Source: Megalonaias nervosa
Lineage: Eukaryota; Mollusca; Bivalvia; Unionida; Unionidae
Length of the DNA stretch: 64,000 bases
NCBI GenBank assembly: GCA_016617855.1
Contig: JAECUM010028897.1
Span: 1 to 64,000 of the forward strand
Direction of reading: 5' to 3'
The notes beneath the pieces are model-generated. The model saw nothing but the letters and a program-made list of their open reading frames with translations. It had not been told where the DNA came from and searched no databases. Shown here piece by piece: positions 19,946 through 35,452 of the stretch; position 1 is the first letter of the stretch; each line of letters starts with the position of its first letter. The position numbers were made by a program, and so were the translations under genes.

Positions 19946-20382
19946 AGTAGTGAAGGGGGGCAAATTAGGGTTTATGGGACTTCTATGTTGAAATAGGGTC
20001 CCGGCAATATAGGGTCTATGGGACTTTAACATGGGTGGGCTACACTAGGTTCAGTGGGAATTTAACGAAGGGAATGTATAGCGACAATGGACTGGGCATG
20101 TCTAGGATCAATAAAAATTGGAGGGGGGTGACGTCACGGTGCTAGACACTGGCAACAATATTGCAAGTTGCTGACCTCAATCGGACGGAACAGTGTGGCA
20201 AGGGGCTGACCTGAATACGCGCTACTCTAGGGACAAATGGAGACATAGACATAGAGACGTGGTGATGACAGGGTTAGAGACACGGTTAGAGACATAGACA
20301 GAGACATAGACATACATAGATTTATGAACATAAATCTATCACGCAAAATATCGACTAAAAATTTGTAGGCAAGAGAGAATAG
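19946..20382 (+). repeat. Polinton left terminal inverted repeat
   Basis: Starts AGTAGTGAAGGGGGGCA and is matched, inverted, by 35030-35452 with scattered substitutions and small indels (roughly nine bases in ten by eye). The inner part holds repeated GAGACATAGACATAG-like words and a 22-bp palindrome at 20317-20338. The match stops at GAGAGAATAG, immediately before the 3' processing signal of the leftmost gene. Confidence 0.95.
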
Positions 20383-20421
20383 ATATCTTTTCGAGGTAAT
20401 GGAGTGGCCCTGAAAAGGGCC
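20383..20421 (-). terminator. histone-type 3' stem-loop and downstream element, gene A
   Basis: On the minus strand 20421-20406 reads GGCCCTTTTCAGGGCC, a perfect 6-bp stem with a TTTC loop, fitting the metazoan histone mRNA consensus GGYYCTTYTNAGRRCC. It is followed by ACTCC and, about 12 nt further, CGAAAAGA, like the histone downstream element recognised by U7 snRNA. The stem starts 13 nt after the gene A stop codon. No AATAAA lies between gene and stem-loop. Confidence 0.8.
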
Positions 20422-20434
20422 TATTAACTTTCTT

Positions 20435-20686
20435 CTATTTTCTCTCCTCTCTTCTTCTCCTCCACCAACTACTCATCTTCTCCATCACATTTTTCGTCTT
20501 CTTCTTTTTCTCCTCCTCCTCCTCCTTTTTCTTTTTCTCCTCTTGTTTCCTCTGTTCGTTTTCTTCTTCTTTCATCAATTTTTCGTTGTAAGTTCTTATC
20601 TGTTCTTTTTCCTCTTTGTCCTCTTTTTCTTCCTTGATCATTTCTCTCAATCGGTCCTTAGCCTTCCTTAAACTGTTAATCTCCAT
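20435..20686 (-). CDS. gene A: small Glu/Lys-rich coiled-coil protein (83 aa)
   Basis: Open reading frame of 83 codons from ATG at 20686 to TAG at 20435. It begins MEINSLRKAKDRLREM, continues as an almost uninterrupted heptad-rich Glu/Lys/Gln helix, and ends in a basic tail with two tryptophans (SSWWRRRREERK). No enzyme domain is visible. A long charged coiled coil suggests a structural or nucleic-acid-associated role; this is inference. It is the leftmost gene, transcribed outward towards the left TIR, and is followed 13 nt later by a perfect histone-type stem-loop. Its upstream sequence has GGGATG and TATAGCC but no clear TATA box. Low-complexity composition means coding status rests on the intact frame, the ATG and the 3' signal. 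Confidence 0.6.
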   Translation of the reverse strand: MEINSLRKAKDRLREMIKEEKEDKEEKEQIRTYNEKLMKEEENEQRKQEEKKKKEEEEEKKKKTKNVMEKMSSWWRRRREERK

Positions 20687-21180
20687 CTTTACACGGTGGG
20701 GGCTATAACACCCATCCCCAGATTGTCCAGCACCTCTTGAGAGTGCTAACCTAAAATAAAAGTTTTATACAAAACAACACACTAATACAAACAAAACCAC
20801 AATACTTTTTATCAATACATAGCTGGAGAAGGAAAGTTTTATTTACAAAACACACCATTACCTACAATCGTATCAGCAAAGGAGTTAGTGTTTATAGTCA
20901 CACTACTTCATATTCACACAAAACAAACACTCATGAGTGTAGGGACACGGGGTTTGTTAAGGGAAGAAAGACACACACACGTACGCGCAAGCACACAAAC
21001 ACAAACAAAGAAACCCCACACACAAACACACACAGGTACGCGCACGCACACAAACACAAACAAAAACACACACACAAACACACACACGTACGCGCACGCA
21101 CACAAACACAAACAAAAAAACCCACCCACCCCCACACACATACCCACACAAACACACACATAATTATATGATTGGCAACT
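20687..21180. other. spacer between genes A and B
   Basis: Non-coding. It contains TATAG-CACACT strings that also occur at about 22040, so this spacer and the B-C spacer are related copies. The right half is the AC-rich minisatellite. Frames reading through the AC repeat on both strands are artefacts of the repeat. Confidence 0.6.
20971..21160. repeat. AC-rich minisatellite, units of about 52-55 bp
   Basis: Three units start GTACGCGCAMGCACACAAAC at 20981, 21036 and 21088. Each then runs through ACAAAC and CACACA repeats. The CpG-containing GTACGCGCACGC core stands out from the surrounding AT-rich sequence. Confidence 0.9.
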
Positions 21181-21813
21181 TAATCAGTATCTTTTTCTAG
21201 AGATCTGGTTAGCCCTGAGAAGTGCTGTTTTTTTTCTAACTCGAAATGCACCTGGTTAATGGTGACACCTCCCAGGCCGGGCACCACACACGCATCGCCG
21301 ACTCCAGTCATTCTCCCAATTAATGCGTGTGGTTGGGAGCGCAGATGGTTGATGAGTGACCTCATCATCCCAGTTTTCACGTTAAGGATAGTGAAGACTT
21401 GCTTCCTCTGTCTTCTCCTATGCCAGACCCGGGGATCATTAGGTCTCTGCGGCTCCCACTCTTGCCGCTATCTCTCCAACTCTTCGTCCCAGTTTTCCAT
21501 CTGGGCGACAGCGGCTCTTGGTACTGGTGGTAGTGGTTGTGGCTGTGGCTGACGTGGTGGTAGAGGTGATGGCGTCCTCACCTCAGGCTTGACCTAACAC
21601 GTTTGCCTAAGTACGAGGTGAAGCAAGATCTGTTTTTCTTTTCCTTCTCCTCTTCTTTCTTCTTTTTTCCACCTCTTCCTCAAGTCTGGCACTTTCTGCA
21701 ATGGCCTCCATGGCCAGCTCATCCAGGAGTCGCATGGCATACTCCAGGTGCATTTGGAGTTCCAACAATTTGCTGATTCTGCTAATCTTCTTTGAACTTA
21801 ATCAGTGAACGAT
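21180..21813 (-). pseudogene. gene B: coiled-coil protein, broken
   Basis: Minus-strand coding relic. The N-terminal part is a leucine-rich helix (SKLLELQMHLEYAMRLLDEL, about 21777-21718) followed by Glu/Arg/Lys helix, a Pro/Gln stretch (PPRQPQPQPLPP near 21540), a Trp/Arg-rich part and a C-terminal segment with TILNVKTGMMRSLINHL. No known family was recognised. Breaks: TGA at 21804-21802, a frame change in the Lys/Arg-rich stretch near 21660, another before about 21590, and TAG at 21470-21468. The aligned start (see gene C) is ATC at 21813, so the first usable ATG is 21753. The true stop may be TAG at 21238 or TAA at 21180. Its promoter and 3' end resemble those of gene C, and it ends at a histone-type stem-loop. 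Confidence 0.55.
21187..21226 (-). terminator. histone-type 3' stem-loop and downstream element, gene B
   Basis: Minus strand 21226-21211 reads AGCACTTCTCAGGGCT: six-base arms with one A-G mismatch and loop TCTC, followed by AACCA. GAAAAAGA follows about 14 nt downstream. The 5' flank is A-rich, as in histone mRNAs. Weaker than the gene A copy but at the same position relative to its gene. Confidence 0.65.
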
Positions 21814-21856
21814 GGGTAGCCAGACTGACCAACGCCTCGCTTCATATTTCTAGTGT

Positions 21857-21879
21857 ACGGACGTGAAGGAAAACATCCC
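21857..21879 (-). promoter_or_regulatory. upstream element shared by genes B and C
   Basis: Reads ACGGACGTGAAGGAAAACATCCC on the plus strand and matches 22612-22634 at 19 of 23 positions. On the minus strand it is followed by TAGAAATA where gene C has TATAAAT, and then by CAGTCTG, also shared. A duplicated core promoter is the simplest reading. Confidence 0.5.
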
Positions 21880-22138
21880 CCTTACATAAAAACTAACAAT
21901 ACCCATTCCACCATCAATAACATGGAACGCACGGACCTAAAAGAAACAAACACGTTAACTTTTTTCCTACAAACACACTTTAGTACCACTCATACATATA
22001 AAAAACAAATAGACTATCTTACAAGCCAGAGAAACGAAGTGTTTATAGGCACACTTCTATTTTATTCAACTTACAAACACACAGAAAATTATATAATTGG
22101 CAATTTGACTACAATCTCTTTTCTGGATTGTTGGGGGT
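21880..22138. other. spacer between genes B and C
   Basis: Non-coding, AT-rich with ACAAACAC words. The stretch GTGTTTATAGGCACACTTCT at about 22040 and AATTATATAATTGGCAA at about 22086 have counterparts at about 20889 and 21160, which shows that the spacers were duplicated with the genes. Confidence 0.6.
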
Positions 22139-22154
22139 AGCCCTGAAAAGGGTT
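22112..22154 (-). terminator. histone-type 3' stem-loop and downstream element, gene C
   Basis: Minus strand 22154-22139 reads AACCCTTTTCAGGGCT (one mismatch in six pairs, loop TTTC), followed by ACCCCC and, about 15 nt on, AGAAAAGAGA. The stem starts 28 nt after the gene C stop. Confidence 0.75.
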
Positions 22155-22182
22155 GTTTTGTTGACGGGGTTATGACCATCTT

Positions 22183-22568
22183 TTATCGTCTAAGATTGCG
22201 TTCCCGTCTAGCTACAGGCTTTCCCACATAATAGGATCTGCTTCTTCGGAAGGAGAAGGAGAACTCTTTCGTGTCCACATTGCAGTCCACAAAAGCTCTG
22301 TCTGACTCCTGCTGTTGTTTCTGCTGCTGTTGTTGTTGTTCTCTCTGCTGTTTCTGAAGTCTGTACTTCTCGATCCATTCTTCTTGCTCCTTCTTGATTT
22401 CATATTTAACACCTCTTCTATCAGGTCTTGGGCCAATTCAGCATCCTGACATCTTCAATCTCATCAGGCTTGGGTATCAGGTTTTACCTGATCCGATGCA
22501 AATTCACTGGGGCTACGTTCAGCTTTGCTAGTCTTGAACACATCTTCATAGATTGACGAGTCAACAAT
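22183..22568 (-). pseudogene. gene C: Gln-rich coiled-coil protein, broken
   Basis: Minus-strand relic of about 125 codons in three frame segments. The N-terminal part reads VDSSIYEDVFKTSKAERSP, then an acidic PKPDEIEDVRMLNWP segment, then a Glu/Gln-rich helix ending in a basic tail (ARRERNLRR) before TAA at 22185-22183. The family was not recognised; composition and position match genes A and B. Breaks: frame changes near 22470 and 22440. The expected start shows ATT at 22568 instead of ATG. It has its own TATA box (22601-22595), an upstream element shared with gene B and a histone-type stem-loop 28 nt after the stop, so it looks like a self-contained single-gene transcription unit. Confidence 0.6.
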
Positions 22569-22594
22569 GGATGGTCAGACTGGAGACCGCCCCG

Positions 22595-22634
22595 ATTTAT
22601 ATGGCTCAAGCGCGGACGCGATAGAAAACATCCC
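22595..22634 (-). promoter_or_regulatory. gene C promoter: shared element plus TATA box
   Basis: On the minus strand the element GGGATGTTTTCTATCGCGTC at 22634-22615 is followed by CCATATAAATCGGGG. The TATA box is 22601-22595. The expected start region falls on CAGTCTGACC, an initiator-like sequence also found in gene B. Confidence 0.65.
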
Positions 22635-22719
22635 TACGATTTTGGGGTATTAACGCTATAACTCATCTCATGGTGAGGGACAGAGAGAAGGCAAAGAGCA
22701 TAGATAGTGAAAACCAAAA

Positions 22720-22768
22720 TTTATTGAAACAAACCACAAACACTTTTTCAAACGATAACATTTTTATT
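22720..22768 (-). terminator. two AATAAA polyadenylation signals of the capsid-protease unit
   Basis: Minus-strand AATAAA occurs at 22768-22763 and 22725-22720, about 50 and 93 nt after the protease stop codon. This unit therefore appears to use ordinary cleavage and polyadenylation, unlike the stem-loop genes to its left. Confidence 0.65.
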
Positions 22769-22817
22769 CAACCAACAAACAACCAAACAATTAAATAACA
22801 TCTACACATTTTTTTTT

Positions 22818-23381
22818 TCAAATAAATTTTTGACAAGGTTGACAACGTTGTGAAGTCAAGTTAGACTTCCACTGATGGAGGTCATTTTTCCATTGATGTA
22901 CTCTACGTTTCCTAGCTAAAGACAAGAGATATCCATAATGGTCACAAAACCATCGATCTACTTTTTCATCGTTTCTAGAAGAGTCATGATCAAAATAAGT
23001 CACTAAATGTTCTAAGGGATATCCACGACTGCGTTGATGAAGAAAATACACACAACATTGTCCACACACCATGGAATCTTTGCCTTGTAATTTCACATTA
23101 TTTAATCGTGTCTTCTGGATATTTCTTCTCATAAAGTAGATGATATCGTCTTCCAAAGGTGGTAATCCGCACGAATCAAAATACTCCACACAGGCATCGT
23201 GGGAAAAGTAGACGGTTACCCAGTGGGTTCCTGAGAGATGACTGTCGACCGTGTTGATGACATAAGATTGATGGTCTTTAGATTTGCGATGAGGAAGTTC
23301 ATCTTTAGTGCACATGACAGGATTCCAAGAAGCGGCGTACGAACTGTTTTTCAAAAAGTAATGAAGTTCACAGGCATCCAT
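22818..23381 (-). CDS. PRO: adenovirus-type (Ulp1-like) cysteine protease, Polinton PRO
   Basis: Intact 187-codon frame starting at ATG 23381. In adenoviruses and Polintons this protease is thought to process capsid and core proteins during virion maturation. Visible catalytic residues in the right order: His53 in GTHWVTVYF, Asp69 in EYFDSCG, Gln99 in KLQGKDS and Cys110 in CGQCCVYFL. The C-terminal 40 residues are basic and Trp-rich. It is the last gene of the packed late cluster, about 32 nt after the preceding stop, with AATAAA signals after it. It is the only recognised enzyme in the element with an undamaged frame and full active site, which suggests recent decay elsewhere or chance. Confidence 0.93.
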   Translation of the reverse strand: MDACELHYFLKNSSYAASWNPVMCTKDELPHRKSKDHQSYVINTVDSHLSGTHWVTVYFSHDACVEYFDSCGLPPLEDDIIYFMRRNIQKTRLNNVKLQGKDSMVCGQCCVYFLHQRSRGYPLEHLVTYFDHDSSRNDEKVDRWFCDHYGYLLSLARKRRVHQWKNDLHQWKSNLTSQRCQPCQKFI

Positions 23382-23413
23382 TTTTGTCTTGTTTCACAGG
23401 TGATAATAAGTCA

Positions 23414-23848
23414 TCAATACAATTCTGACTTTTTTGCTTGAATATCTGTCAAGTAAACGGCTCCTGGCTTTGTCTCCGTACTCTGTACCAAGAGAGATTC
23501 GATGCGACGGATATCCAGAGCAGTCAATGGAGGGGAGGAATGGTCACACAAAACTTTATACCACTTATGTAACACTGCTTCTTCCGAGACGAGACCCCAA
23601 GCGTCGTCCAGATACTCGTCCAATTTTTCATCTTGACTCATCATCAGACATTTATCGTGTTGAATTTGACTGGGATGATCATTTTGACATCCATAGCAAT
23701 CCTTCTTGGTCAATTCCGTAATTTTATTCGACAGGTGCATAGCAAAACAGGAGACTAAATAGTCTCCTTGTTCTTGGCATCGTGATATCACCATCACCTC
23801 TTCGTCTTTGTTTTTGGGTTCTGCTTCCAAGATATCCTCCCATTCCAT
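23414..23848 (-). CDS. conserved Polinton protein with CxxC...HPSQ...HxxC motif
   Basis: Open frame of 144 codons from ATG 23848. The same frame is open upstream to a GTG at 23893, 5 nt after the capsid-gene stop, so the original start may have been there. The clearest feature is a possible zinc site CYGCQNDHPSQIQHDKC. The rest is mostly helical and acidic at the N-terminus. I believe this HPSQ-containing protein recurs next to the major capsid gene in other Polintons, but cannot verify that here, and its role is unknown. Position between capsid protein and protease suggests a virion component. No stop or frameshift is seen in this part. Confidence 0.65.
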   Translation of the reverse strand: MEWEDILEAEPKNKDEEVMVISRCQEQGDYLVSCFAMHLSNKITELTKKDCYGCQNDHPSQIQHDKCLMMSQDEKLDEYLDDAWGLVSEEAVLHKWYKVLCDHSSPPLTALDIRRIESLLVQSTETKPGAVYLTDIQAKKSELY

Positions 23849-23898
23849 TTTCAAAGATTCTCCACCATTCAAAGAGGGATAAGGATCTTCCACAGCCT

Positions 23899-25196
23899 CT
23901 AATAGTCTAGAATGACTTCTCTCAGACTGTTGATTTCTATCGTATTGTCGAATTTGGGATACAAGATGACGTTCACCGTCTCGGGTAGAGCTGTAGGAAA
24001 CTGAAGTTCCACACGAAACTGCCCGGATTTTATAGGGTGGAAATGTTTCTCGTCGCTGCCTTTGTCTGGAGTGATATCAAAAGCCCACAAAACGTAACCT
24101 CCTGCATAATTGTCGTACGAAATGCCGTGACTACTATTGGTCCCTTGCTGTCTGGTAGCTTCGTACAGGGACAAGTAAGAACTCAAGTAATTCTTCTTGT
24201 CAAAGTATGGTTCGAAGGGTCTGATACACCAGGTCTTACCATCTCGACTGACTTCAATCTTGGACACGTTGTACTGCTCAAACTCGAAAGGATTTTGATC
24301 GGGGGCTCCGTTGAGTGCTGCATTGCTAACGATGAAAATGATTAAACAATTGGGTAACTGTCCTTGGAACATAGGATTTTCAATCTTGGATCGGAGTCAA
24401 GCGGCAATGGTGAAAGTTTTCACTTCCACTCGTCGTATCGGATACTTGGAGGTCGTTCTGCTCAAAGTGTGACTGATGTCGTTTCCCACTTCAGGTAACA
24501 CTTCCACGCGTCGCATAGAGCCTGTCTTCTTCGATGACTGTTTTGTAATTGGCAGCATCAGCCATCAAATGGAAACCGGTACTGTTGAGATTCAGTCTTA
24601 GGCGGACATCCACTCCGTTCAGCAAATATTTCTCTTGCAACCACATATCCAAATGCAAACGATCCATCAGTTCTAAACTCTGCCCATCCTTGATTTTGTT
24701 TCGTCGGTCGTTGAATCCCACATTGTAGTTTGGTTCTTTATCTGTAATCAAATCGGTGTCTTTTGAATTTGCCTACTGTGTCAGGTTTCCATACCACGCA
24801 AGCATCCAGATGGGTGTTCCTGGCTTCTTTTCTTTACGTCAAGAGATTTTCGAGGTACGTTCGGTAAGGGTAAGTATCCATGCTGATACTGTCCAGTTTG
24901 TTATTCAAGTACAAATCCAATTCACTGAACAAGGAATGCATAAAATTGTTGATGGAGGCTACTTCGTCGTTATCGTCTCTAGAGTTTCGAGTCGGATCGA
25001 GAACTTTGACCGCTATTCAGATAGATGTATCTTCGGGCTGTCCTTTGATTTCAAATTCGATGGGGGCTGAGGTTGTCAAAGAGGAGATGGGATGAAATTT
25101 TACCCACTGAGATTCTTGCATCGTCATCATAGTGGGTGGCATGGCAAACAGATCCAGTTCCGACTTGGAACATTCGCAAGACTCTCGGTGCATCAT
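23899..25196 (-). pseudogene. major capsid protein (double jelly roll), Polinton PY, broken
   Basis: Recognised from Polinton major-capsid signatures read in separate frames: SELDLFAMPPT near the N-terminus, then PIEFEIKG, NNFMHSLFSELD and YPYRTYLENLL; RNKIKDGQSLELMDRLH in the middle; YVLWAFDITPD, LPETVNVILYPKFDN and IEI near the C-terminus. In the family this protein forms the hexon-like shell. Start chosen at tandem ATGs 25196/25193, 16 nt after the previous stop. Breaks: TGA 25019-25017, TAA 24836-24834, TAA 24740-24738, TGA 24399-24397, and frame changes near 24750 and 24490. It cannot make a full capsid protein. The length, about 430 codons, is slightly short of the family's usual size. 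Confidence 0.92.
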
Positions 25197-25212
25197 TTTT
25201 TCTCTCTGTTAT

Positions 25213-25641
25213 TTAATAATCAAAAACATCTAATTCTCTGACGGTTTTTATTTTCTTGGTCTTTCTAGCTCTGGGTATGTGAAGTCCTCTGGTGGGGTGT
25301 TTTCGTCGTCTCTTTCTGCCTTGTCCTTGCTGTGGCATCAGGGAAGCAGGAATGCCTGACTGGGCAGCGTCCAGGGGGCATTTATAGGAGTTTCTCGTCG
25401 ACCCAAAATGTCTTTTCCAGTTTGAAGCAAGACATTTTTTCCTGCTCTCAAGAAGGCTTCTTTGGGGATTTGTTTGTCGATATGATATTTTTGGAGAAAT
25501 TCTTTGCATTGCGTCAAAGCGGCGTCTTTCAAGACGTGCAATCTTCGTGTCACCATGGGCAACCGAACGAAACGTCGATTTCAGCATATCTCCTGAACCA
25601 TGTCCTCGCTGTCAAGCGACTCCTCAGTAAACAGGATACAT
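25213..25641 (-). pseudogene. basic core-like protein between penton and major capsid genes, broken
   Basis: Minus-strand relic of about 140 codons starting at ATG 25641, 3 nt after the minor capsid stop. The first part is helical (VLKDAALTQCKEFLQKYHID), the second strongly basic (GRKRRRKHPTRGLHIPRARK), ending in a short acidic tail before TAA at 25213. A basic protein encoded beside capsid genes suggests DNA binding or a virion-internal role, comparable with adenovirus core proteins; this is inference. Breaks: TGA at codon 6, a frame change near 25590 and another near 25380. Confidence 0.6.
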
Positions 25642-25644
25642 GAA

Positions 25645-26545
25645 TTACACGCCGTTAGAGAATCGTCTTCGAAAATGGAGTTTCACTGTGACTTTCCCTT
25701 TGGTGAATGGAATATTTTGTACCAGATCTCCTTTTATAACAATGTTGACACTGTCGAAATACGACTTTACTGACGAGTAAATAGTGAGCATGTACAAATT
25801 CGCGGTGAACGTGATAGGTGTTTCCACCTTCCTCGTCACTGGTCGTGGCAGAATCCGCTTTGAAAGGACGCGGATGTGTGTCCCACCACGTTGTACTCCA
25901 CCTCATCAGAGTACACAAAGATCAAATTTACTCCTTGGTTCAGTTCTACAAGAGATCGAAAAAACTTCGCAAAATTCAAGTTGTTAGCGATGTGTGGCAT
26001 GTTGTTACCCATGACCATCTTGAGGTCTCCACGCAAAATGTCAAACAATTCAGGACAAAACGTAATGGACAACGTTTTGGCATCCGAAAATTTCATCAGT
26101 AGGCGACGAGCCGCTTTATGGCACTCGAGGGTGGCACTTCATTTGGTTTTCACCAAGGCTTTGCCAAACATCGCATTGAATTTGGAAGCAATCGTGTCTA
26201 CCTGATGTTAACCGTTAAAATAATAGCCTGCAGAAATTTTCATCAGATAGATGTACCGTGGAGTATCGGGGGACACTTGTCGTTTCATAGAGGCATCTAC
26301 AGTTTCGTTTTCATTCAAGTATTGCACTTGGTCGTTCAGAACATCGACCTCAAAGTGTTTTGATTTTCAGTGATGTTGTTGATTTGTGTAGGGTGAATCA
26401 GTTCGACCAAAGCCACTTCCCAATGGGCTTCGTGATCCAATTGCATGGCCTGAAGTAATTTGGCGGTGAAACAGCACAAAGTATTGTGGGGAAACACATC
26501 CATGGAACTGTCACTGGGTAAAATTAAGTAAAATTTGTTATTCAT
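25645..26545 (-). pseudogene. minor capsid protein (penton, single jelly roll), Polinton PX, broken
   Basis: The N-terminal segment from ATG 26545 carries the characteristic NKFYLILPSDSSMDVFP and HWEVALVELIHPTQIN motifs of Polinton penton proteins. Further on are RYIYLMKISAGYY, and near the C-terminus DSVNIVIKGDLVQNIPFTKG. The family forms the capsid vertices. The ATG overlaps the TGA of the upstream membrane-protein gene (ATGA). Breaks: frame change near 26340, TAA 26210-26208, TGA 26141-26139 and a frame change near 25845. About 300 codons in all, normal for the family. Confidence 0.88.
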
Positions 26546-26946
26546 AATTCCAGACTTCTGCTGTCCGTGAGGTCACTGGAGGTCAGGGGAGTGTCTAAAA
26601 GAGGACTGTTGTTGTTATTGTGACTGTTGGAAGGATGACTGGCGTTGGGCGCAAGACGTCCGTTGTTACCGTTAGAGTATTTCAGGGAAGGATTGAGGAA
26701 AAGGTAATCGATGCAACTGCTCAGTAAAATGGTCCACAATTGTTTGTCTCCTTGTTGCAAACTCAGATTGGCAATGGCAGCACCGATGACACAATACAAC
26801 ACAAAAATTTGGCAGAAAAAAACGATTTGCGTTTTAGGCACACGTTCTCCACACCACACCAACAAGGGTTGTTTTTGTAGATCTTGCAGCGAAGAACTCG
26901 GTGAAAGAGTGGTCACTGTGGTGGTTGAGGCTGTGTTGAAGGGCAT
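26542..26946 (-). CDS. small two-helix membrane protein
   Basis: Intact 134-codon frame from ATG 26946, 5 nt after the integrase stop; its TGA overlaps the penton start. Residues 41-63 form one hydrophobic helix (VFFCQIFVLYCVIGAAI) and residues 70-87 a second (LWTILLSSCIDYLFLNP). The N-terminus is Thr/Ser-rich and the C-terminus Asn/Ser-rich. Short membrane proteins with a LLSS-x-YL-x-NP-x-LK segment are, as far as I recall, common in Polinton capsid clusters, perhaps acting at virion membranes or entry; the function is not established. No damage seen. Confidence 0.7.
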   Translation of the reverse strand: MPFNTASTTTVTTLSPSSSLQDLQKQPLLVWCGERVPKTQIVFFCQIFVLYCVIGAAIANLSLQQGDKQLWTILLSSCIDYLFLNPSLKYSNGNNGRLAPNASHPSNSHNNNNSPLLDTPLTSSDLTDSRSLEL

Positions 26947-26951
26947 GATGG

Positions 26952-28232
26952 TCACTTCAATTTATAGTGGATGACTTGCGAAGCGTCGATCCAAGAGTCA
27001 AAACTCTTCGGATATCCTTTCCAATGTACTTTGACTTCTTTGACACGAGGTTCTCCCACTTTACGGGTTCTTCGATCAGGAATGCTTTCGATATCGTACA
27101 CTTCGTCTTCTATTTTGGTCACGCGTTGTAACTCGGCAAGTAGAACGTTCCTTTTAACACTTCCCCGTTCATATCTTCCAATTTATAGACGGTAGGATGA
27201 CGACCACGCACTCGTCCAGTTACACGAAACAATTCGATGGTACAGTTGGGTAAGTAACCTTTGTCGAAAGTGCGTTTGGTTTTGCCAATGCACATTCAAT
27301 CTCCCGTCGTCAACATTCCACCTTTCTTGGGGACAGCCAGAGTCGGGGACGTATCAAACAGGCGCTCAAAGATGGTCACTACGTTGTCGGGAGTCACCTC
27401 TTGGGGGGCACATCCGATGCTTCGATGGTAAGATTGTTTTTACGCTTGGACCAAGTGCGGTAGGACGTCGATGTACTTGAGAGTGTGTTGGTGCGTAAAA
27501 TATTTCCACATGCGTTCTTTCAAGGTGCGTTGATTGAAAACGTTCCACGATGCTGGCTTTGGTTTCTGGATTCTCGGTGGTGAAAAAATGAATGTCTCGT
27601 TTCTTTAATTCTTGTTGGAAAGCTTGGTTCAGAAATTCAGTGCTTTTGTCGGTTTGCCATCGGAGAGGGTGACGACCACTTTGTTTGTTTCAACACCAAT
27701 TTGAGGGCTCTCACTAACTCAGTGCTCGATTTTGAAGTCACTGGTACGACCCAGGCAAATTAAGAAAAGACGTCGATGACACAAAACAAATATTTGTAGC
27801 CACAATTGTAGGTGGCTAAATGAGAGACATTGGCTAAATCGGCTTGCCATTGATGATCAATGCCCTCCACTAGGGTGTGATTTCTGGAAAGTTTTCGTCG
27901 AATGGGTTTGTGTAAGGTGTACGTGGCTTGTTCTTGTAACCATCGTTGCACTTGAGGTAAACGGATACTTCTGAGTCGGGTTTTGGCAGCACGATACAAT
28001 TTCTGAACTCCTCCGTATCACGCGGGATGGGATGGATCGCAGAAAATGCTGGCTAGCAAAATCTCCATTAGGACTTTCCTTTTTAATACGACACCCACTC
28101 TTCACGGATGCTACTCTTTTATTCGTGTGGTATTTTCTTGGATTGTTATGCTTTGCGTGTCCGACATGCAATAGGTGTCGTGGATGATGTCTGAACAGGG
28201 ACAATTGGTTCTTGTTTAACTTCTGTTTTCAC
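26952..28232 (-). pseudogene. INT: retroviral-type integrase with C-terminal chromodomain, Polinton INT, broken
   Basis: Family integrases join the TIR ends to the target and make the 6-bp duplication. Visible pieces: YGGVQKLYRAAK and TYTLHKPIRRK upstream of the core; QWQADL with the first catalytic Asp; CVIDVFS; WQTDKSTEFLN with the second Asp; KASIVERFN with the Glu about 34 residues later; and a chromodomain-like end VKVHWKGYPKSFDSWIDASQ. The N-terminal region holds VKTEVKQEP. Breaks include TGA 28020-28018, TAA ending at 27760, TAA 27442-27440, frame changes near 27700 and several between 27500 and 27100. The start is inferred at GTG 28232 by comparison with the neighbouring promoter. Integrase stop and next ATG are 5 nt apart. 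Confidence 0.92.
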
Positions 28233-28239
28233 CTGTTTG

Positions 28240-28293
28240 GTTCAGGAGCAAACAATATACTGAAGACCATTGCTTGACATGCATCCTTTTATA
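28240..28293 (-). promoter_or_regulatory. promoter of the integrase-capsid-protease unit
   Basis: Minus-strand TATAAAAGGA begins at 28293 and GCTCCTGAAC occupies 28249-28240, exactly 44 nt from the first base of the TATA box. The same pair at the same distance precedes the next gene to the right (28622/28578). No further TATA box is seen until after the protease. Confidence 0.65.
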
Positions 28294-28350
28294 TTATTTT
28301 TTGGGAATGTATTTTTGGATAAGGTTTGATAGACCAGACTGTTTGAGCAT

Positions 28351-28560
28351 ATGTTCTACCATTCCTGTGCAAAAATCCTCTCCTTTGGTACCTCCTCTTT
28401 ATCTTTGGACGATGGGGTCTTTTCTGGGGTAGACGTCGATGCTTGGCTAAACGTTTTTTCGGATGCGGGGTCAAACGTCGAGACTGTCCTTTTCTTTTTC
28501 GTTTTTCTTTTTAACAGGAGAACGACGATGGTAGTGGAGTGCACTTCGTTTAGGTGACAT
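28351..28560 (-). pseudogene. small basic Ser/Thr/Lys-rich protein, broken by one frame change
   Basis: Starts MSPKRSALHYHRRSPVKKK at ATG 28560 and runs into a Lys run where the frame changes (near 28500). The continuing frame reads RTVSTFDPASEKTFSQ and PEKTPSSKDKEEVPKE before the stop near 28356. A second ATG at 28598 is in that later frame but lies only 24 nt from the TATA box, too close to be transcribed. Basic composition suggests nucleic-acid binding. No family recognised. It has its own TATA and GCTCCTGAAC promoter. Confidence 0.5.
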
Positions 28561-28568
28561 CTTTTGGC

Positions 28569-28622
28569 GTTCAGGAGCACAAAAACACTTATACACATCG
28601 TTAGCCCCAGGTCTTTTTTATA
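28569..28622 (-). promoter_or_regulatory. promoter: TATA box plus GCTCCTGAAC element
   Basis: Minus-strand TATAAAAAAG begins at 28622, and GCTCCTGAAC occupies 28578-28569, 44 nt downstream. The ATG at 28560 follows 9 nt after the element. Confidence 0.65.
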
Positions 28623-28635
28623 GTGGAATGCGTCG

Positions 28636-28977
28636 TCACTGATTGTCGGTCCCTCGTATCATTTTCCTAGCAAGCATCACTCGACTTTGAGGGGTTCGCA
28701 ACGGACTAAATCGGGATAGTTCTTGCTTGGATACATCCAGTAAACCCTGTAACATATCAGATCTCTCTAGGACTTTAATTTTGGGAGAGGGTACTTTGTT
28801 AGCAGCTGCCGGAGCAGCTAAAGAGGTGGAGGGTGTCACCGCTGGTGGAGAAGTTTCTGGAGACACAGGTTTCCATTTTTTCATCAAATGAGGAAAGACG
28901 CGTGTCAAATTGGGTTTGGCTGGCATCACCAGCAACGGAGAAGTGAAAGAACCTGAGTCTACTAGAGAAGCAGTCAT
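28636..28977 (-). CDS. Ala/Pro-rich small protein, function unknown
   Basis: Intact 113-codon frame from ATG 28977, 12 nt after the preceding stop. It begins MTASLVDSGSFTSPLLVMP, has an Ala/Pro/Ser-rich middle (PPAVTPSTSLAAPAA) and a basic C-terminus (SRVMLARKMIRG). No family recognised. The stretch DMLQGLLDVSKQELSRF could be an amphipathic helix. Third gene of the unit that starts with the ATPase; probably a virion or assembly accessory protein by position only. Confidence 0.55.
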   Translation of the reverse strand: MTASLVDSGSFTSPLLVMPAKPNLTRVFPHLMKKWKPVSPETSPPAVTPSTSLAAPAAANKVPSPKIKVLERSDMLQGLLDVSKQELSRFSPLRTPQSRVMLARKMIRGTDNQ

Positions 28978-28989
28978 CGTCGCTGCAGG

Positions 28990-29221
28990 TCATGGTTTGG
29001 GAATGTAAGGTTGCCTACTGGCCGAAATGCCTCTCTTGCGGATAGAAGCTGTTTTCTGAGGTCTTTTCTGGGGGCTTTTCTTTTTCTGGGGCTGTGACCT
29101 GGCCTTGACACCACTGCTCTTTTTTCTTCTGGATACGTTTGGGTCGGGGAGTGACTTTTTCCTTGTGTATGACTTTGGGAGCATTGGGATCCCATTTTAA
29201 GATGGGAGCGAATGATGACAC
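28990..29221 (-). pseudogene. small Lys/Arg-rich protein, frame change
   Basis: Two overlapping minus-strand frames form one basic protein: FAPILKWDPNAPKVIHKEK at the N-terminus and, after a frame change near 29120, KKKSPQKRPQKTASIRKRG and ASRQPYIPKP at the end. No ATG precedes it; the first codon open in frame is GTG 29221, just after the truncated ATPase, so the true start may have been lost with the ATPase end. Highly basic like viral DNA-condensing proteins, but no family recognised. Confidence 0.45.
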
Positions 29222-29244
29222 CTCCTAGAGAACCGCTGACTTTG

Positions 29245-29697
29245 TTAGAACAGATTTTGGGTGATGTAAATGACACTGGCATTACGATGATGCCCTTTGC
29301 GCGTAAACCACAGTTTAATTTTTTCTTCGTCTTCTCCTAACATGTCGTCGAAGATGACCAGGTGAGTTTGACTGCGGTCAGACACGATCCCCTCGTCTTC
29401 GTCAGGAATGCCTTCCACAAACACGATGGAATTGCCTTGACTTTCTCGCAGGAGGCTGTACACCGATTGCCATTCTTTGTAACACCACACGATTCGTTGA
29501 GGTGGACGATCGATCAAATGATGTTTATGTTCGATCTAATGTTTGACAAATTCGTTTTTGACTGAGCCGCTTGGTCCACCAATTAACGAATTAAAGGGAT
29601 GGCGAATATACAAGGCCTCCCAGCTAGCACGATCTAAGTTTTCGTCGATGACTTTGAAAGTGGAGGAAGAGGGAGCAGAGACAGCAGAGGTAGCCAT
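29245..29697 (-). pseudogene. ATP: genome-packaging ATPase (FtsK/HerA, A32-like), broken and truncated
   Basis: From ATG 29697. In the family this motor packages DNA into the capsid. The P-loop region reads LIGGPSGSVKNEF: the second Gly and the Thr/Ser of the Walker A consensus are replaced (V and N). A TAG at 29538-29536 follows. Walker B is intact as HLVIFDDMLGE, followed by VIYITQNLF (a family motif) and then TAA. The usual C-terminal third is absent, and the basic-protein gene starts within about 25 nt, so a deletion probably removed it. First gene of its unit, with a TATA box 44-54 nt upstream. Confidence 0.88.
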
Positions 29698-29740
29698 AGT
29701 GCAGGGAATGTCACTTTTGAAACGAAGACAGACAAAACAA

Positions 29741-29751
29741 GAGTTTTTATA
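29741..29751 (-). promoter_or_regulatory. TATA box of the ATPase unit
   Basis: Minus-strand TATAAAAACTC begins at 29751. TCCCTGCAC, a weaker version of the downstream element seen at the two promoters to the left, starts 44 nt on and directly precedes the ATG. Confidence 0.6.
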
Positions 29752-29767
29752 CTTTTTTCAGGACACA

Positions 29768-29773
29768 TTTATT
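29768..29773 (-). terminator. AATAAA polyadenylation signal
   Basis: AATAAA on the minus strand 12 nt after the stop of the membrane-anchored protein gene and only 16 nt before the TATA box of the next unit. Confidence 0.6.
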
Positions 29774-29784
29774 TCAAGATATTT

Positions 29785-30144
29785 TTAAAATTGAACACGA
29801 AAGACAAAAATACACAAAAGCCAAATGGTTAAGTATATCAATAAAATACACATCAAAATGATCAAAGTGGAATATAAACCAGTCACTGGACAACATTTTT
29901 GGTGACAAAGGTATGGTGTCCTAGGGACACTGGGTAATGTTTTTAGAGGCTCTACACTTGGCACAATCACACAGGGGTCCTTTCGGAATGGCCTTTCGGC
30001 GATGTCCATGTCAGTGATGGTCGAGTCCTGAATGGAGTGGTTTTCCTCGGTGTCGGGCTCTTCTTCTGACACTGTGGCTAACACAGGTTTGAAAGTTACT
30101 TTTTTCACTGAACGTTTGAATTTATGATCACAAATATTGGGCAT
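29785..30144 (-). CDS. tail-anchored membrane protein, function unknown
   Basis: Intact 119-codon frame from ATG 30144, overlapping the end of the previous gene by about 17 nt. Residues 10-20 contain SVKKVTFKPV, followed by an acidic stretch (SEEEPDTEE), a Pro-rich part with CHQKCC, and a C-terminal hydrophobic helix of about 23 residues (LIILMCILLIYLTIWLLCIF). The layout is that of a cytoplasmic domain with a C-terminal membrane anchor. No family recognised. It is the second and last gene of its unit. Confidence 0.6.
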   Translation of the reverse strand: MPNICDHKFKRSVKKVTFKPVLATVSEEEPDTEENHSIQDSTITDMDIAERPFRKDPCVIVPSVEPLKTLPSVPRTPYLCHQKCCPVTGLYSTLIILMCILLIYLTIWLLCIFVFRVQF

Positions 30145-30598
30145 AGTTTGCCGCTTCTTTTGTCCAAGCCTCGAAACCGAAACTTTTCCAGTCACGTACA
30201 TCTGGCCAGTGAGGATGTAAGTCACAAGCTATACACACATCTTCGTAAACATCTTCAGTGACTAAAAGTTGATGAATCTTTTTTTCCCGTAGAGGTCGAG
30301 AAGTATCGAGACGAAAGCGCAAGGCTTTTAGCAGAATAAGTCTCTCGTGTACATTTAAAGGTACCACCCTCATGTTTTTGGTGGTACTGTGAGGTACAGA
30401 TTGTAAAGAGCCCACAAGGAATCGGCCTGGTAAAAGAAATCTCGGAAAGGAAGTCACTAAGACACACACCACATGTCAACCCGAATTAATTGGATACAGT
30501 TCTCGTAAAAAGTGTTGTTAATCCGCCACAGTCTGAATACTATCATTGATTTCCTTCCACGGCAATTGTTGTATCAATAATGATAAATGTCGTGGCAT
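30128..30598 (-). pseudogene. unrecognised gene of about 155 codons with two stops
   Basis: One minus-strand frame from ATG 30598 (MPRHLSLLIQQLPWKEIN) to the stop at 30128, interrupted by TAA after about 26 codons and TGA about 14 codons later, and then open through RFLLPGRFLVGSL, VHERLILLKALRF and DLHPHWPDVRDWKSFGFEAW. The even character of the three parts argues for one former protein. An intact fragment could start at ATG 30373. No family recognised. The ATG at 30598 is only 17 nt from the TATA box, so the original start may lie further in. Confidence 0.45.
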
Positions 30599-30606
30599 CG
30601 TAGCAA

Positions 30607-30615
30607 GTTTTTATA
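30607..30615 (-). promoter_or_regulatory. TATA box between polymerase and next unit
   Basis: Minus-strand TATAAAAAC about 55 nt after the polymerase frame ends. It has no GCTCCTGAAC element. Confidence 0.5.
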
Positions 30616-30670
30616 AGTGACTTTTTGCACAGAAATGATCGTACTCCGTCGACGTATCCAAATAGCTTAG

Positions 30671-33600
30671 TCACTCACACACGACACACCGCACAGAATT
30701 TTCCTCTACAGACAAAATTTGATAGCGTAAAAGATTTTGGTAATCTTCTAAGTCTTCCTCTGGAATTCGTTGTAGTATGGACACTATGTAAGTAGAATCA
30801 GTAGCAACCTTGTGGTATTCTTCTGTTATGGGAAAGTGGTAAATTTCGTACACTTCTAACAATTGGTATCCTATATCCAGAGCTTTCAACAATTCCACGC
30901 TGACCCAAGTTCCTGTCAAGGCGCGTTCTACCTGGGTGTAATGACAAGATTGGTCTTGGTTGCATGTTTCGGCACATTGATGGCACAAGGGAAACATCAG
31001 TTTTCCTTGGCAATGGTGAGGTAAATCGGGATAGTACAAGTTCCTGGGAGGCAAGACTTTACATTTAATCAGTCCTTCGTATTGTCGAATGTTGTCCAGG
31101 TCAATGTGTTCCGTCAGCATTTGTGGGTGTCCTGCGTGAACGTGACAATATTTGTACACGTAAGGATACAGCGAACACACGTCCAAGTATTTGATTTCTT
31201 CTCCTTTCTCCTCTTCAGTACAGCAAACAGGTGGCATTCGTCCGTCCTCCGTACAAACTATCCCGCTGAATCAGAGGGTCCACCAGCTTGTAACTTTCCA
31301 CGATAGGTTTAAACTCGGGATCGGTTTTCAAACGGTGATCGTACTCGTGTTCCCACATTTCTACCACTTGGTATCCTTGCTGTTCTCGCTTAAGCGCCGT
31401 TGACAAGTGGCCTCGTACAAGACTTCCATGGTACGTTGTAAAAACTTATTTTGGGTGTACCGTTGATGATAGCAGATCAGACATCCGTGAAATAAGTATC
31501 CGTTAAACTCGTACACGATCTTAGGGTTTTCTAAGTCCCAGCCATCCACCGAACACGTTCCGATGGTCTTTTCACCTCCTCCGTTTCTGGCGTGTTGGAT
31601 CAAATTGTCTTCCTTGTCACACAAGTAATGTAGCCAGCGTCGGGCTTTGACCGAGTATTGACGCTTGGCACAATTGGTCATTTGAAGGCTTATGACAGCC
31701 AGGATCTTTTTGGGCATGAATCGTTTGTGGTACACTAAGGAACACACTTTGGCAATGGGGCAGGCTTTTTCAAAGGATCGATCCCTCATCATCCATGAAC
31801 AATTCTCGAAATTTTCCACAACATCGCCGTAAAATGTCCACGTCGGAACGACAATACTTTAACATTTCTTCCTGAAAGTCGATGGGGTCCGAAGCGTGAG
31901 TTTGGTACCAAGCATAGAAAGCTTCTTGTTGTTCGGTGCGCATGTTGTCGGGGTCATAGTAGTGAGCATCAGGCAAATGTGATAAAATAGCGTGTTGATT
32001 GGCTTCGGTATTGAAAAAGTGCGGCAAATAGCCTTTGGCCATTTCTGTCATTCCAAACGTTTTAGGCATTCGACTCAAAGGCATGGCCAAGTAACTCATC
32101 GAATCTTTAAACTGCACTTGGCCCACTCGCATGGAAATGAGTTTGGCTCCGTTCAAAGTCATTTTAGTACGTTCGGTGCTTTGTTCCGTATAGTATTTGA
32201 GAAGAAACTGTCCAGCGTATCCCGAGAATTTGTGAGCCATCACCGTGACATAGCGATGACAATCTGCATAACGTTCGATGTCATCTTGGCTCCACGTCTG
32301 GTCAATAGGGTTTAAGATCCATTGGGCAAAATCGGCCAGCGTGTTAGGTCCCCGAAAGATTTTTTTCACGTCCTCCAGGAATCTTGCTACAGTGGGGGCA
32401 ATGGCAAAAGATAGGTTCTTGGATGCACTTCTCGCACGCTCGATGAGCCAGAAATTGGGAATGTGAACGCCAGTCTCTTGCATGCATTCAAAATCGAAAA
32501 AATTGAAATTTCCTTTCTTCTTGTGGTCATCTTCTTCCTCCTCCTGTTGGGGTTGGTATCTCTGAATGTAGCATTCGTGTTCCAAGTCCACGATTTGGTG
32601 ACAAATGTGACATCGTTTCTTTCCTGGACATAGGTGTGCCTTGGCATTATTGGCATTATTGCTACGTATAACTTGTCCACAAATAGAACACAATCTCAGA
32701 AGTTGACAAGCACTTTTCTGCTGTGAACCTTGCGTTTTCAAATGTTGGTAACAGGCTGGGTTGACAAACGTTCGCTGACACGTTGGGCAATTTACTCGTT
32801 GTTGTCCTTCGTTAAGACAAGGTTTAGAGACCAGACATCCCTCACATTTTGATCCACAATGCTTGTGTTGCTCTCGATTGTTATGGCGATAGTCACATTT
32901 CTCACAGTAATAACTGTATCCCATGAATCCAGTGATACTGGTAAAGGTATCGAAATGTTCATCGTGATGATAGACTTGAATGTATTTTCCATCTTTGAAA
33001 TTTTTGCCTCGAAACAACAGAGGGCCGCGCACTTCTTGAGGGTGTTCTTTCAATGTGTAGCGTGGAGCCAAGACGTCTTGCAATTTTTGCATTTCAGGAA
33101 TACCGTAGGGTGTGTCCTTGGATAGGCCAGCTTGCTGTCACAGGAGTTCTGCTCCTCTTCGTTGTTTGGCTCGGTCCGATTGTCGAATGTCCTCCCAGAC
33201 TCTTTTCCATTCTACCGTGTCGTTCTTGTCAGCATACGTTCGTCCCACCACGATGGCCCTGGCTAAACACATCTTGTCTTGAGAGTTGTTAATTCGGACG
33301 AGGATCTTTTGGTACTGCGAAGGTCTTCGAAATATAACACCTTTTTGCATCCGGTCCCTTTGGGAAGAGAAACGTGGGCCATGTACAGTGTTGCTTTTCC
33401 ATCGTTGATGCGAAACTTGCCGTTGGACTGCTGCACATGTTGAATCTTGTCGATGACTTTGGAAGGTAAAATTCTGCTGGCCTGCTAAACTCGATCCAAA
33501 CAGGGGACTTCAGACTGTCGTGATAAATGGAGAGTGTCAAGCAATCATCTTCGTTGGTTCGACATTGCCATTTCAGTGTTGTTAACAAAGAATCCCACAA

Positions 33601-33800
33601 ATCTGTGATGAACCCGTTTCTCCAGCGGTACGTCTGATTTGAAATCTTTAAAATTTCACCGTGTACGTGTAGGCCGTGGTTCTAAATTTTCTAGAGGAGC
33701 ATTTCTCCGTCTCGCAAATGTGGTAGTACTTTTCAGGGGTTACTGGCGGTGGAGTCTGGTTTGACGTAGACTCTCTGGGTCTGGATTCTGGCTCACTCAT
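30671..33800 (-). pseudogene. POLB: protein-primed family B DNA polymerase, broken and C-terminally truncated
   Basis: Replicates the element in the family. Start taken at ATG 33800 (MSEPESRPRE); the frame is open further upstream without ATG. Order seen: N-terminal domain with LKSPVWIEFSRPAE and KMCLARAIVVGRTYADK; a Cys/His-rich zinc region (about 32900-32570); ExoI FFDFECMQ; ExoII VMAHKFSGYAGQFLL, where the usual Asp is Ala; ExoIII YCRSDVDIL; a region with DGWDLENPKIVYEFNGYLFHGC; and palm motif A YLDVCSLYPYVYKY. Then the frame ends at 30671 without motif B or the motif C (DTDS) region, so several hundred residues are missing. Breaks: stop near 33650, frame changes near 33320, 31795, 31400 and 31230, TGA near 33140. 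Confidence 0.92.
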
Positions 33801-33900
33801 GTCATCTTCAAAATCGCTGGCATGGATTTGAGCCAAGACTTCAGCAACTCGATAGGTCACGTATCTGGCTCTTACTTTCTTCTCCTTTCTTCACGAAATT

Positions 33901-34476
33901 ATGCGATCATCTCATCTTGATTGCAAAAGGTCAAATGACTACATTTTAACGCCATCGTCCCCTATATATCAATGTAAAGTCAGTGTCCTCCTATACAAAT
34001 GGTCAGTGCCTTCCCTCAGAGTATTCATTTCACTCTCATCCGACCAGAAAGATGGTAGAGCCAAGAAGATCGAACTTCTGATCAGAGCTTTGCGATGTGT
34101 CATACGAAGGTTTTCTTCAGAGAAGCCGACGGACTACCCCACCTCCTTTCGAGATAACAGTCAATATACTTGCTATATCTATCAGAAGAATGGGCATTGG
34201 TCTTCAGAATGTCCACGACGTCAAAGCAAGACAAGCCTCATAAGAGACAAAGGTCAAGATACCTGTTATCATTGTAAAGAGAAAGGACATTGGTCTTCAG
34301 ACTACCCTAAGAAACAACAGGAGGAGGCAGAGAGGGGTTCCGAACAGGAAGAAGAGTTACCCTCCGAAAAGGAAGAACCCAGACACATTCAGAAAGAGAA
34401 GAAAAGAAGCCGAGAAGAAAGTGAAGAAGAAGAAAAACCTGTTGCAGTGAAGAAATTCAAAAAACTGAGAGAGTGA
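33901..34476 (+). CDS. plus-strand zinc-knuckle (CCHC-type) protein with acidic/basic tail, damaged
   Basis: The only convincing plus-strand gene in the element. Two CCHC-like knuckles in tandem: CYIYQKNGHWSSEC (second Cys is Tyr) and CYHCKEKGHWSSDY (last Cys is Tyr). Intact knuckles of this type bind single-stranded nucleic acid and occur in retroviral nucleocapsids and cellular CNBP-like proteins. A Glu-rich segment and a basic nuclear-signal-like end (VKKFKKLRE) follow. The frame is open from ATG 33901, but a TATA-like sequence lies inside it at 33963, so real translation probably began downstream of 34000 and a frame change may hide the start. Each knuckle has lost one ligand, so binding is doubtful. 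It lies between the polymerase and the right-end gene. Confidence 0.55.
   Translation: MRSSHLDCKRSNDYILTPSSPIYQCKVSVLLYKWSVPSLRVFISLSSDQKDGRAKKIELLIRALRCVIRRFSSEKPTDYPTSFRDNSQYTCYIYQKNGHWSSECPRRQSKTSLIRDKGQDTCYHCKEKGHWSSDYPKKQQEEAERGSEQEEELPSEKEEPRHIQKEKKRSREESEEEEKPVAVKKFKKLRE
33961..33975. promoter_or_regulatory. possible divergent TATA sequence
   Basis: CCTATATATCAATG can be read as TATATATC on the plus strand, towards the zinc-knuckle gene, and TATATAGGGG on the minus strand, towards the polymerase. The polymerase ATG at 33800 lies about 165 nt away. Confidence 0.4.
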
Positions 34477-34499
34477 AAAGACAACGAAGAAGTCTATAA

Positions 34500-34680
34500 A
34501 CTTTTTAAATTGATGTGTTGTGAAATTGGATTGTAAATTTTACAGATAATACACCAGAAAGAAAAACGTAAGTGTCTCTTGGTTTTGACTTTTATAATAA
34601 GGACTTACACTCACGCACTCACACACGTCCATCATGGGTAAAAGGGAATTTGAGTTTTATTTGATTTTGGCAAACATTGA
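34500..34680. other. spacer between zinc-knuckle gene and right-end stem-loop
   Basis: Non-coding. A minus-strand TATTATAAAAGTC is present at about 34586-34598 with no convincing minus-strand frame after it; it could be an upstream polymerase promoter, but is about 800 nt from that ATG. No clear AATAAA for the zinc-knuckle gene. Confidence 0.4.
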
Positions 34681-34684
34681 GTAG

Positions 34685-34722
34685 TCTCTTTTCGAGAGAG
34701 GTGGGTGTCCCTGAAAAGGACC
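34685..34722 (-). terminator. histone-type 3' stem-loop and downstream element, right-end gene
   Basis: Minus strand 34722-34707 reads GGTCCTTTTCAGGGAC, with loop TTTC, one G-A mismatch and one G-T pair. Flanks are the best of the four: ACACCCAAC before and ACCCACC after, close to the histone consensus flanks. CGAAAAGAGA follows 13 nt downstream. Confidence 0.72.
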
Positions 34723-34782
34723 GTTGGGTGTTTGTTTTTTGTTTTTTAAAAAAAAACAAATTCAGGAACGGGAAGTAATGAG

Positions 34783-34911
34783 CTATAACTGCCTTATGCC
34801 TTTGCCACGGCCAAGGCCTACTTCTGGACATGCTACTGTCGATGATTTGGTAGAGATCACTAGTGTTGGTATCTCAGGCGTAGTGGGACTGTGGACGGTA
34901 CTGGAATCTTT
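34783..34911 (-). pseudogene. gene D: possible small right-end gene relic
   Basis: A minus-strand frame reading DSSTVHSPTTPEIPTLVIS, then a Gly/Arg stretch GLGRGKGIRQL, ends at TAG 34785-34783, 60 nt before the histone-type stem-loop. It has no ATG; the open frame extends to 34968. Thr/Ser/Pro composition and the DSS beginning recall the first residues of gene C. A weak TATA-like TTAAATAC lies at about 34945. Coding status is uncertain; the main support is the stem-loop. Confidence 0.35.
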
Positions 34912-35029
34912 GGCTCGGGAAGTTTTTTTTTCTCTTGGGTCGTATTTAAGAAGTCTGATACATTTCTTTCAGACTCCTTAACTTTGCCGAAATGTCTAAG
35001 AGTACGGTCACCGTTTGACTTTCACCGTC

Positions 35030-35452
35030 CTATTCTCTCTTGCCTAAAATATTTTTAGTCGATTTTTTGTGTGATAGATTTATATTCATAAATCTATGTA
35101 TGTCTATGTCTCTATGTCTCTAACCGTGTCTCTAACCATGTCTCTATGTCTATGTCTCTATTTGTCCCTAAAGCAGCGCGTATTCAGGTCAGCCCCTTGC
35201 CACACTGTTCCGTCCGATTGAGGTCAGCCACTTACAGCATTGTTGCCAGTGTCCAGTACCGTGACGTCACCCCTCTCTAATTCCTATTGACACTAGACAG
35301 GCCCAATCCATTGTCGCTATACATTCCCTACGTTAAATTCCCATTGACCCTAGAGTAGCCCACCCATGTTAAAGTCCCATAGACCCTATAGTGCCCTGAC
35401 CCTATTTTAATATAGAAGTCCCATAGACACTAAAATGCCCCCCTTCACTACT
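35030..35452 (-). repeat. Polinton right terminal inverted repeat
   Basis: Inverse of 19946-20382, ending TGCCCCCCTTCACTACT. It carries the same inner CATAGACATA-like words and the palindrome at 35075-35096. Confidence 0.95.

Follow-up and report, generated by a model that had tools for sequence, protein, structure and literature searches.

The window analysed here (64,000 nucleotides [nt], positions 1 to 64,000 of the forward strand of contig JAECUM010028897.1 of the bivalve Megalonaias nervosa, assembly GCA_016617855.1) contains a Polinton/Maverick element whose small terminal genes are followed by a signal of the kind that ends replication-dependent histone mRNAs. This histone-type 3'-end signal is real and recurrent in the Polinton family: a hairpin and a downstream purine element stand in the same order and at similar spacing after small open reading frames (ORFs) near the element ends, and they recur across copies in the host genome and in a distant relative, here called L006. 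A function in histone-like processing is very plausible, and we consider it quite likely that the 3' ends of these small terminal genes are genuinely of the histone type, with host stem-loop-binding protein (SLBP) and the U7 small nuclear ribonucleoprotein (snRNP) giving S-phase mRNAs. A first-pass annotation, made from the sequence alone, had proposed the same interpretation, which is largely upheld, the functional part as a prediction from sequence.

Four minus-strand hairpins, termed sites A to D, lie exactly at the positions given for them by that annotation, with either all six or five of six stem pairs formed (Table 1). The purine element that it had described at histone-like spacing begins 13, 13, 15 and 13 nt past stems A, B, C, and D, respectively. 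When L006 was included in the comparison, the element lay 12 to 15 nt past the stem in all five cases, and its AAAGA core began 15 to 17 nt past the stem; such a purine element is found 10 to 17 nt on at ∼1.9% of the minus-strand positions of the Polinton. The covariance search proposed alongside the annotation, performed with the Rfam Histone3 model (RF00032; curated cut-off, 34 bits), gave a significant match at site A (33.8 bits, E = 5.8e-6, whole-window scan), 0.2 bits below the cut-off. All four sites score below 34 bits, and a default search of the window at this cut-off returned nothing. A scan of the element only yielded E-values over 4227 families of 1.4e-6 (A), 1.2 (C), 4.3 (D), and 8.3 (B), equivalent after division by 4227 to single-family values of ∼3e-10, ∼3e-4, ∼1e-3, and ∼2e-3. 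Besides these four sites, this Histone3 scan revealed no match in the element, and two flanks of 15,507 bases each contained none at E ≤ 10. The strict pattern GGYYYTHHYHARRRCC occurred once in the window, compared to 0.05 expected occurrences. Using a relaxed scan, 32 hairpins were detected in the window, five of which were followed by GAAA(A)(A)GA 5 to 25 nt on; four of these five were the named sites. The 16-mer of site A is among the human histone stem-loops listed in PMC7807067. The predicted fold of site B was weak (−1.3 kcal/mol). Sites A to D also have in common a TTGCC stretch about 20 to 30 nt beyond the purine element.

As had been claimed, each hairpin follows a small gene or a gene relic. 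Site A is preceded by a lysine/glutamate (K/E)-rich ORF and site C by an open frame with a TAA about 29 nt ahead of the hairpin (located by eye), and relics lie upstream of sites B and D. The ORFs of the window units are K/E-rich, glutamine-rich, or relics, and none encodes a histone. Units B and C are probably tandem duplicates, since a promoter-like stretch is common to both.

The first-pass annotation had named recurrence after small genes in related Polintons as a check, and the signal was indeed found after small genes in L006 and throughout the Polinton family of the host. L006 was obtained by scanning genome records of bacteria and archaea with a profile of family B DNA polymerase (PolB); 69 stretches matched, and one encodes a relative. 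This stretch (8,883 nt, within a Bacteroidia metagenome-assembled genome) is, judged by its genes, a eukaryotic contaminant contig: it carries genes for PolB, a chromodomain-bearing integrase, and a TATA-binding protein as well as an ORF with two C2H2 fingers, and its putative capsid protein is similar to mollusc and scorpion proteins. The sole Histone3 match in L006 scored 35.8 bits (over the cut-off; E = 1.5e-7) and is on the sense strand, with a purine element 12 nt past the stem. The hairpin of L006 played no part in its selection, which was made by PolB; the count is one out of one, and recurrence outside the host is that of this single locus. Its zinc-finger gene fits the zinc-finger regulators described in some adintoviruses in a preprint (PMC11071296). 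Protein scans of IMG/VR viral contigs detected no relative. Hairpin-pattern scans of the same collection returned three and two stretches, which by eye appeared to be phage-like DNA; the first three had no Histone3 match, and the other two (L004 and L005) were judged from ORFs and sequence only. A phage collection gave no match.

Within the host assembly (2.19 Gb, 54,709 contigs), at least 75 Histone3 matches were scored (75 of 423,121 first-look candidates), at least 66 of them over the cut-off and the best at 44.1 bits. Site A of the window is missing from this list, and the counts are therefore a lower bound. In 30 loci of ∼3 kb around Histone3 matches, no core or linker histone was found by tblastn (0/30), and seven contained a zinc-knuckle or protease piece. 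Larger regions around the top matches contained Polinton genes in 13 of 20 cases and a histone gene in none. A search of the host genome for histone H4 gave seven matches, one of them strong (94%, residues 3 to 89). The data suggest, without showing it, that histone clusters are poorly assembled in this genome, which may be the reason why no histone gene was found near the top hairpins.

The 20 regions contained 15 further hairpin-plus-purine sites that had not been picked by the model, compared to 1.0 expected from block shuffles, and 14 of the 15 were histone-like. Stem pair 1 was A-T in seven of these 14 sites and G-C in seven, and thus paired in all, in a scan that required just five of six stem pairs; this swap is a compensatory pair change. 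Sister copies with fully paired stems exist at the positions of sites B and C. Using crude text rules, the ORFs ahead of the hairpin in the 30 loci were assigned to a 77-amino-acid (aa) family (11 loci), to a K/E-rich class (10), or to a unit-D-like class (5), with 4 unclassed. A terminus-like motif was located 279 to 434 nt downstream in eight of the 30 loci and at 1,071 nt in one more. Column conservation was 0.99 in the hairpin, 0.90 in the purine element, and 0.55 to 0.60 in the far flanks, calculated from 17 of the 30 loci (minus-strand loci were not reoriented) at model-picked sites, and was not used as support. Among the 20 larger regions (L039 to L058), six had an outward-reading hairpin 613 to 1,153 nt from a unit-D-type hairpin, at 1,123 to 1,153 nt in five of these.

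Members of the 77-aa family showed a pooled ratio of nonsynonymous to synonymous differences per site (pN/pS) of 0.34 over seven copies (pS, 0.10 to 0.44) and, by this estimate, the family is under purifying selection. The hairpin after the ORF was identical in all seven copies, six of which had been model-picked at the hairpin, and the 27-nt spacer from stop codon to hairpin differed by 22% in the five copies having it. Three of the seven copies had no stop. The 16-mer AGCCCTTTTCAGGGCT, representing one site class, was present in 3,001 exact copies in the host genome (1,459 + 1,542), with ∼0.2 copies expected by chance assuming 38% GC; the reversed-pattern control occurred there in 0 copies. 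A search with the protease gene yielded at least 150 copies (150 scored of 19,435 candidates). In all seven checkable copies, AGCCCTTTTCAGGGCT was located 657 to 701 nt downstream of the protease on the same strand, the counterpart in the window being site C at 666 nt, and four of the seven had a second AGCCCTTTTCAGGGCT at 1,534 to 1,646 nt. Checkable copies were those 7 of the 150 matches in contigs C1 to C849, for which the places of the pattern were listed, and pairing was done by eye; the protease copies are alike and not independent, yet they were not chosen by the hairpin. In the host genome, Polinton hairpins seem to outnumber the hairpins of the host's own histone genes. The protease copies were ∼80% identical to that of the window, and because over a hundred of them had nearly equal scores, a recent burst in the host genome is suggested.

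The similarity to the 3' ends of replication-dependent histone mRNAs comprises the stem, the loop, the CCAAA-like 5' and ACYC-like 3' flanks, a purine element at similar distance, and a hairpin soon after the stop codon. As described in PMC7026596, histone pre-mRNA is cleaved by U7 snRNP 4 to 5 nt past the hairpin, with U7 base-pairing to the purine core through its CUCUUU core. In the mouse H2a construct given there, we counted 16 nt between stem and core, compared to 15 to 17 nt at the Polinton hairpins. In contrast to histone genes, the Polinton signal follows non-histone genes of mobile DNA, its processing is so far only predicted, and the purine core of sites A and B reads AAAGAT and not AAAGAG.

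The signal consists of a 6-bp stem closed by a UYUC-type loop of 4 nt, an ACYC-like flank for cleavage, and the purine downstream element. In the likely mechanism, the hairpin would be bound by host SLBP and the purine element by host U7 snRNP, with CPSF73 cleaving between the two. The resulting mRNAs would have no poly(A) tail and, like histone mRNAs, would be produced and retained chiefly during S phase. The products of the terminal genes, which are probably regulatory or DNA-binding, would thereby be coupled to host DNA replication, the time at which an integrated nuclear DNA element could best replicate, and the AATAAA found after some hairpins would act as a fall-back. We infer recognition by SLBP and U7, cleavage, absence of poly(A), S-phase timing, and a benefit to the element. 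Taken further, a large and widespread Polinton lineage has probably placed its terminal genes under the replication-dependent histone mRNA pathway of the host, with SLBP and U7 snRNP serving as a switch for S phase. We know of no other mobile DNA element or virus that uses the pathway in this way, and, to our knowledge, histone-type 3' ends are regarded as nearly private to replication-dependent histone genes. A literature search conducted mostly without subscription papers found no report of such ends in Polintons among the titles and abstract beginnings listed, which leaves novelty unproven. If the proposal is true, the SLBP/U7 pathway can be borrowed by a virus-like element, Polintons gain a cell cycle timer, and thousands of natural sequence variants become available for dissecting SLBP and U7 recognition. 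The timing of Polinton gene expression within the cell cycle also becomes a testable question.

Several observations weigh against this interpretation. In the window copy, three of the four stems are mismatched and score far under the cut-off. The top sites in the host genome were chosen by the histone model, and their perfect stems are partly a product of this selection; many copies are near-identical, and their counts do not represent independent events. No Polinton gene was found by tblastn in 7 of the 20 larger regions. Pairing of the five downstream stretches was weak with both human U7 (shuffle p, 0.44, 0.03, 0.01, 0.11, and 0.21) and fly U7 (0.10, 0.40, 0.03, 0.02, and 0.01), and their U7-pairing ranks within the element were mostly unremarkable, the U7 used being that of human and fly and not of the host. 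A search for U7 in the host genome found none, and the control of that search was empty as well. Finally, AATAAA occurs 73 nt past the hairpin of site C, 46 nt past that of site D, and 71 nt past that of L006, which makes ordinary polyadenylation possible at these three.

The last observation is the basis of the strongest competing explanation, in which the SLBP-bound hairpin would affect translation or decay, while most transcripts would be polyadenylated at the downstream AATAAA, a situation found outside S phase for some histone genes. Genes of this class that have either type of end, such as H2A.X and H2AC18, are described in PMC7807067 and PMC9756948; they likewise combine the hairpin and downstream element with AATAAA in reach, but are host histone genes with expression data, whereas the Polinton case is known from sequence alone. 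Also counted in favor of dual ends were C. elegans histone genes with AATAAA close past the hairpin, whose transcripts nevertheless end at the hairpin (PMC1924863). However, site A has neither AATAAA within 450 nt downstream nor another 3' signal in reach, only 5 of the 30 host loci have AATAAA within 300 nt past the hairpin, and the purine element has been retained at processing distance. We regard dual ends as unlikely. At site B, AATAAA follows 368 nt past the hairpin. The first-pass annotation had assigned AATAAA to the central units in place of the hairpin. This held for two of the eight central ORFs tested, which have AATAAA within 100 nt, but not for the other six, and sites C and D have it in addition to their hairpins; the contrast is weaker than that annotation had it.

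Giant viruses and virophages use hairpins as signals for transcript ends, and a hairpin at the transcript end of a virus-like element is in this respect similar. The Polinton signal could be a Polinton-specific processing or DNA element (for termination, packaging, or recombination, or a hairpin end signal of the viral kind) that merely looks histone-like, and every site does lie near the element ends. Yet the hairpins of giant viruses and virophages are not known to have the histone letters or a downstream element. In those studied here, loop letters specific to histone hairpins occur together with the purine element and the ACYC flank, and the score under a histone-gene-based model reaches 44 bits. 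Moreover, the hairpin follows a variety of small genes and is always in their sense orientation, which would not be expected of a DNA site. This explanation appears improbable to us. An even more doubtful one is that thousands of hairpin transcripts act as a decoy, titrating SLBP or U7 and disturbing the histone supply of the host and not timing genes of the element; the 3,001 copies of a single hairpin class and the at least 150 protease copies would suit it, but the hairpins stand at the ends of coding units, and purifying selection acts on one or more of these, neither of which a decoy would need. Chance hairpins in A+G-rich sequence were rejected using shuffles, equal-sized flanks, and the reversed-pattern control, and have a negligible probability: sites B, C, and D are each weak alone, but recurrence (the match in L006, those in the host genome, the further unpicked sites, the 3,001 exact copies, and the seven of seven protease copies) already refutes chance.

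Table 1. Features of the Polinton and of related loci (window positions unless a locus is named)
Feature	Position	Strand	Remarks
Polinton/Maverick (adintovirus-like) element	19946..35452	-	terminal inverted repeats, termini AGTAGTGAAGGGGGGC..GCCCCCCTTCACTACT, GATAAT target duplication; decayed, genes mostly on minus strand
Left terminal inverted repeat	19946..20362	.	arm comparison
Right terminal inverted repeat	35051..35452	.	arm comparison
Site A stem-loop, 6/6 pairs	20406..20421	-	Histone3 33.8 bits; 13 nt past stop of K/E-rich ORF
Purine element of site A, GAAAAGATAT..	20381..20393	-	begins 13 nt past stem
Site B decayed stem-loop, 5/6 pairs	21211..21226	-	15.6 bits; purine element 13 nt past stem
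Site C decayed stem-loop, 5/6 pairs	22139..22154	-	17.8 bits; purine element 15 nt past stem
Site D decayed stem-loop, 5/6 pairs	34707..34722	-	16.4 bits; purine element 13 nt past stem
Unit A small ORF, K/E-rich	20434..20685	-	related to ORFs that precede stem-loops at other host loci, e.g., L019
Unit D gene relic	34723..35050	-	kin of ORFs ending ..RGKG..SRS ahead of stem-loops elsewhere, e.g., L023
Promoter-like stretch, unit B	21750..21900	-	resembles that of unit C in pairwise alignment
Promoter-like stretch, unit C	22470..22640	-	carries ATATAAAT at 22602
Protease ORF, 187 aa	22818..23381	-	AATAAA 50 nt past stop; relatives
Chromodomain piece of integrase gene	26955..27182	-	Pfam Chromo 3.2e-7
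PolB piece	30671..31237	-	Pfam DNA_pol_B_2 1.5e-11
PolB piece, 440 aa	31770..33092	-	Pfam DNA_pol_B_2 1.4e-12; 35 relatives
Zinc-knuckle ORF, opposite direction to neighboring genes	33901..34476	+	Pfam zf-CCHC 5.6e-8
77-aa ORF family ending ..RCPLC, ahead of hairpin	L016:1237-1470 and kin	+	without Pfam match
L006 two-finger C2H2 ORF, intact, 89 aa	L006:8042-8311	+	stop 28 nt ahead of hairpin
L006 TATA-binding-protein homologue	L006:7189-7725	-	Pfam TBP 1.5e-27

The element itself is a Polinton by its termini, target-site duplication, and genes, and its identification as such in the first-pass annotation was confirmed by terminal inverted repeats, a 6-bp duplication, PolB, protease, and a chromodomain integrase. 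The duplication GATAAT adjoins both ends, and the two arms are 88.6% identical over 438 columns (Kimura two-parameter distance of 0.089 over 418 columns). Since its reading frames are broken at many places, the window copy is an old one. With Polintons/Mavericks and adintoviruses it shares inverted termini, the 6-bp target duplication, a PolB of the protein-primed type, protease, integrase with chromodomain, and capsid relatives, but differs in that histone-type signals end its small terminal genes. Among the window pieces tried, no Pfam match to the integrase core was obtained, and the protease ORF itself had no Pfam match; it has close relatives plus a remote one bearing PF00770. Relatives of the window PolB were found in mollusc, echinoderm, and spider records and in a coral adintovirus. 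Relatives of the zinc-knuckle ORF were observed near hairpins in many copies across the host genome.

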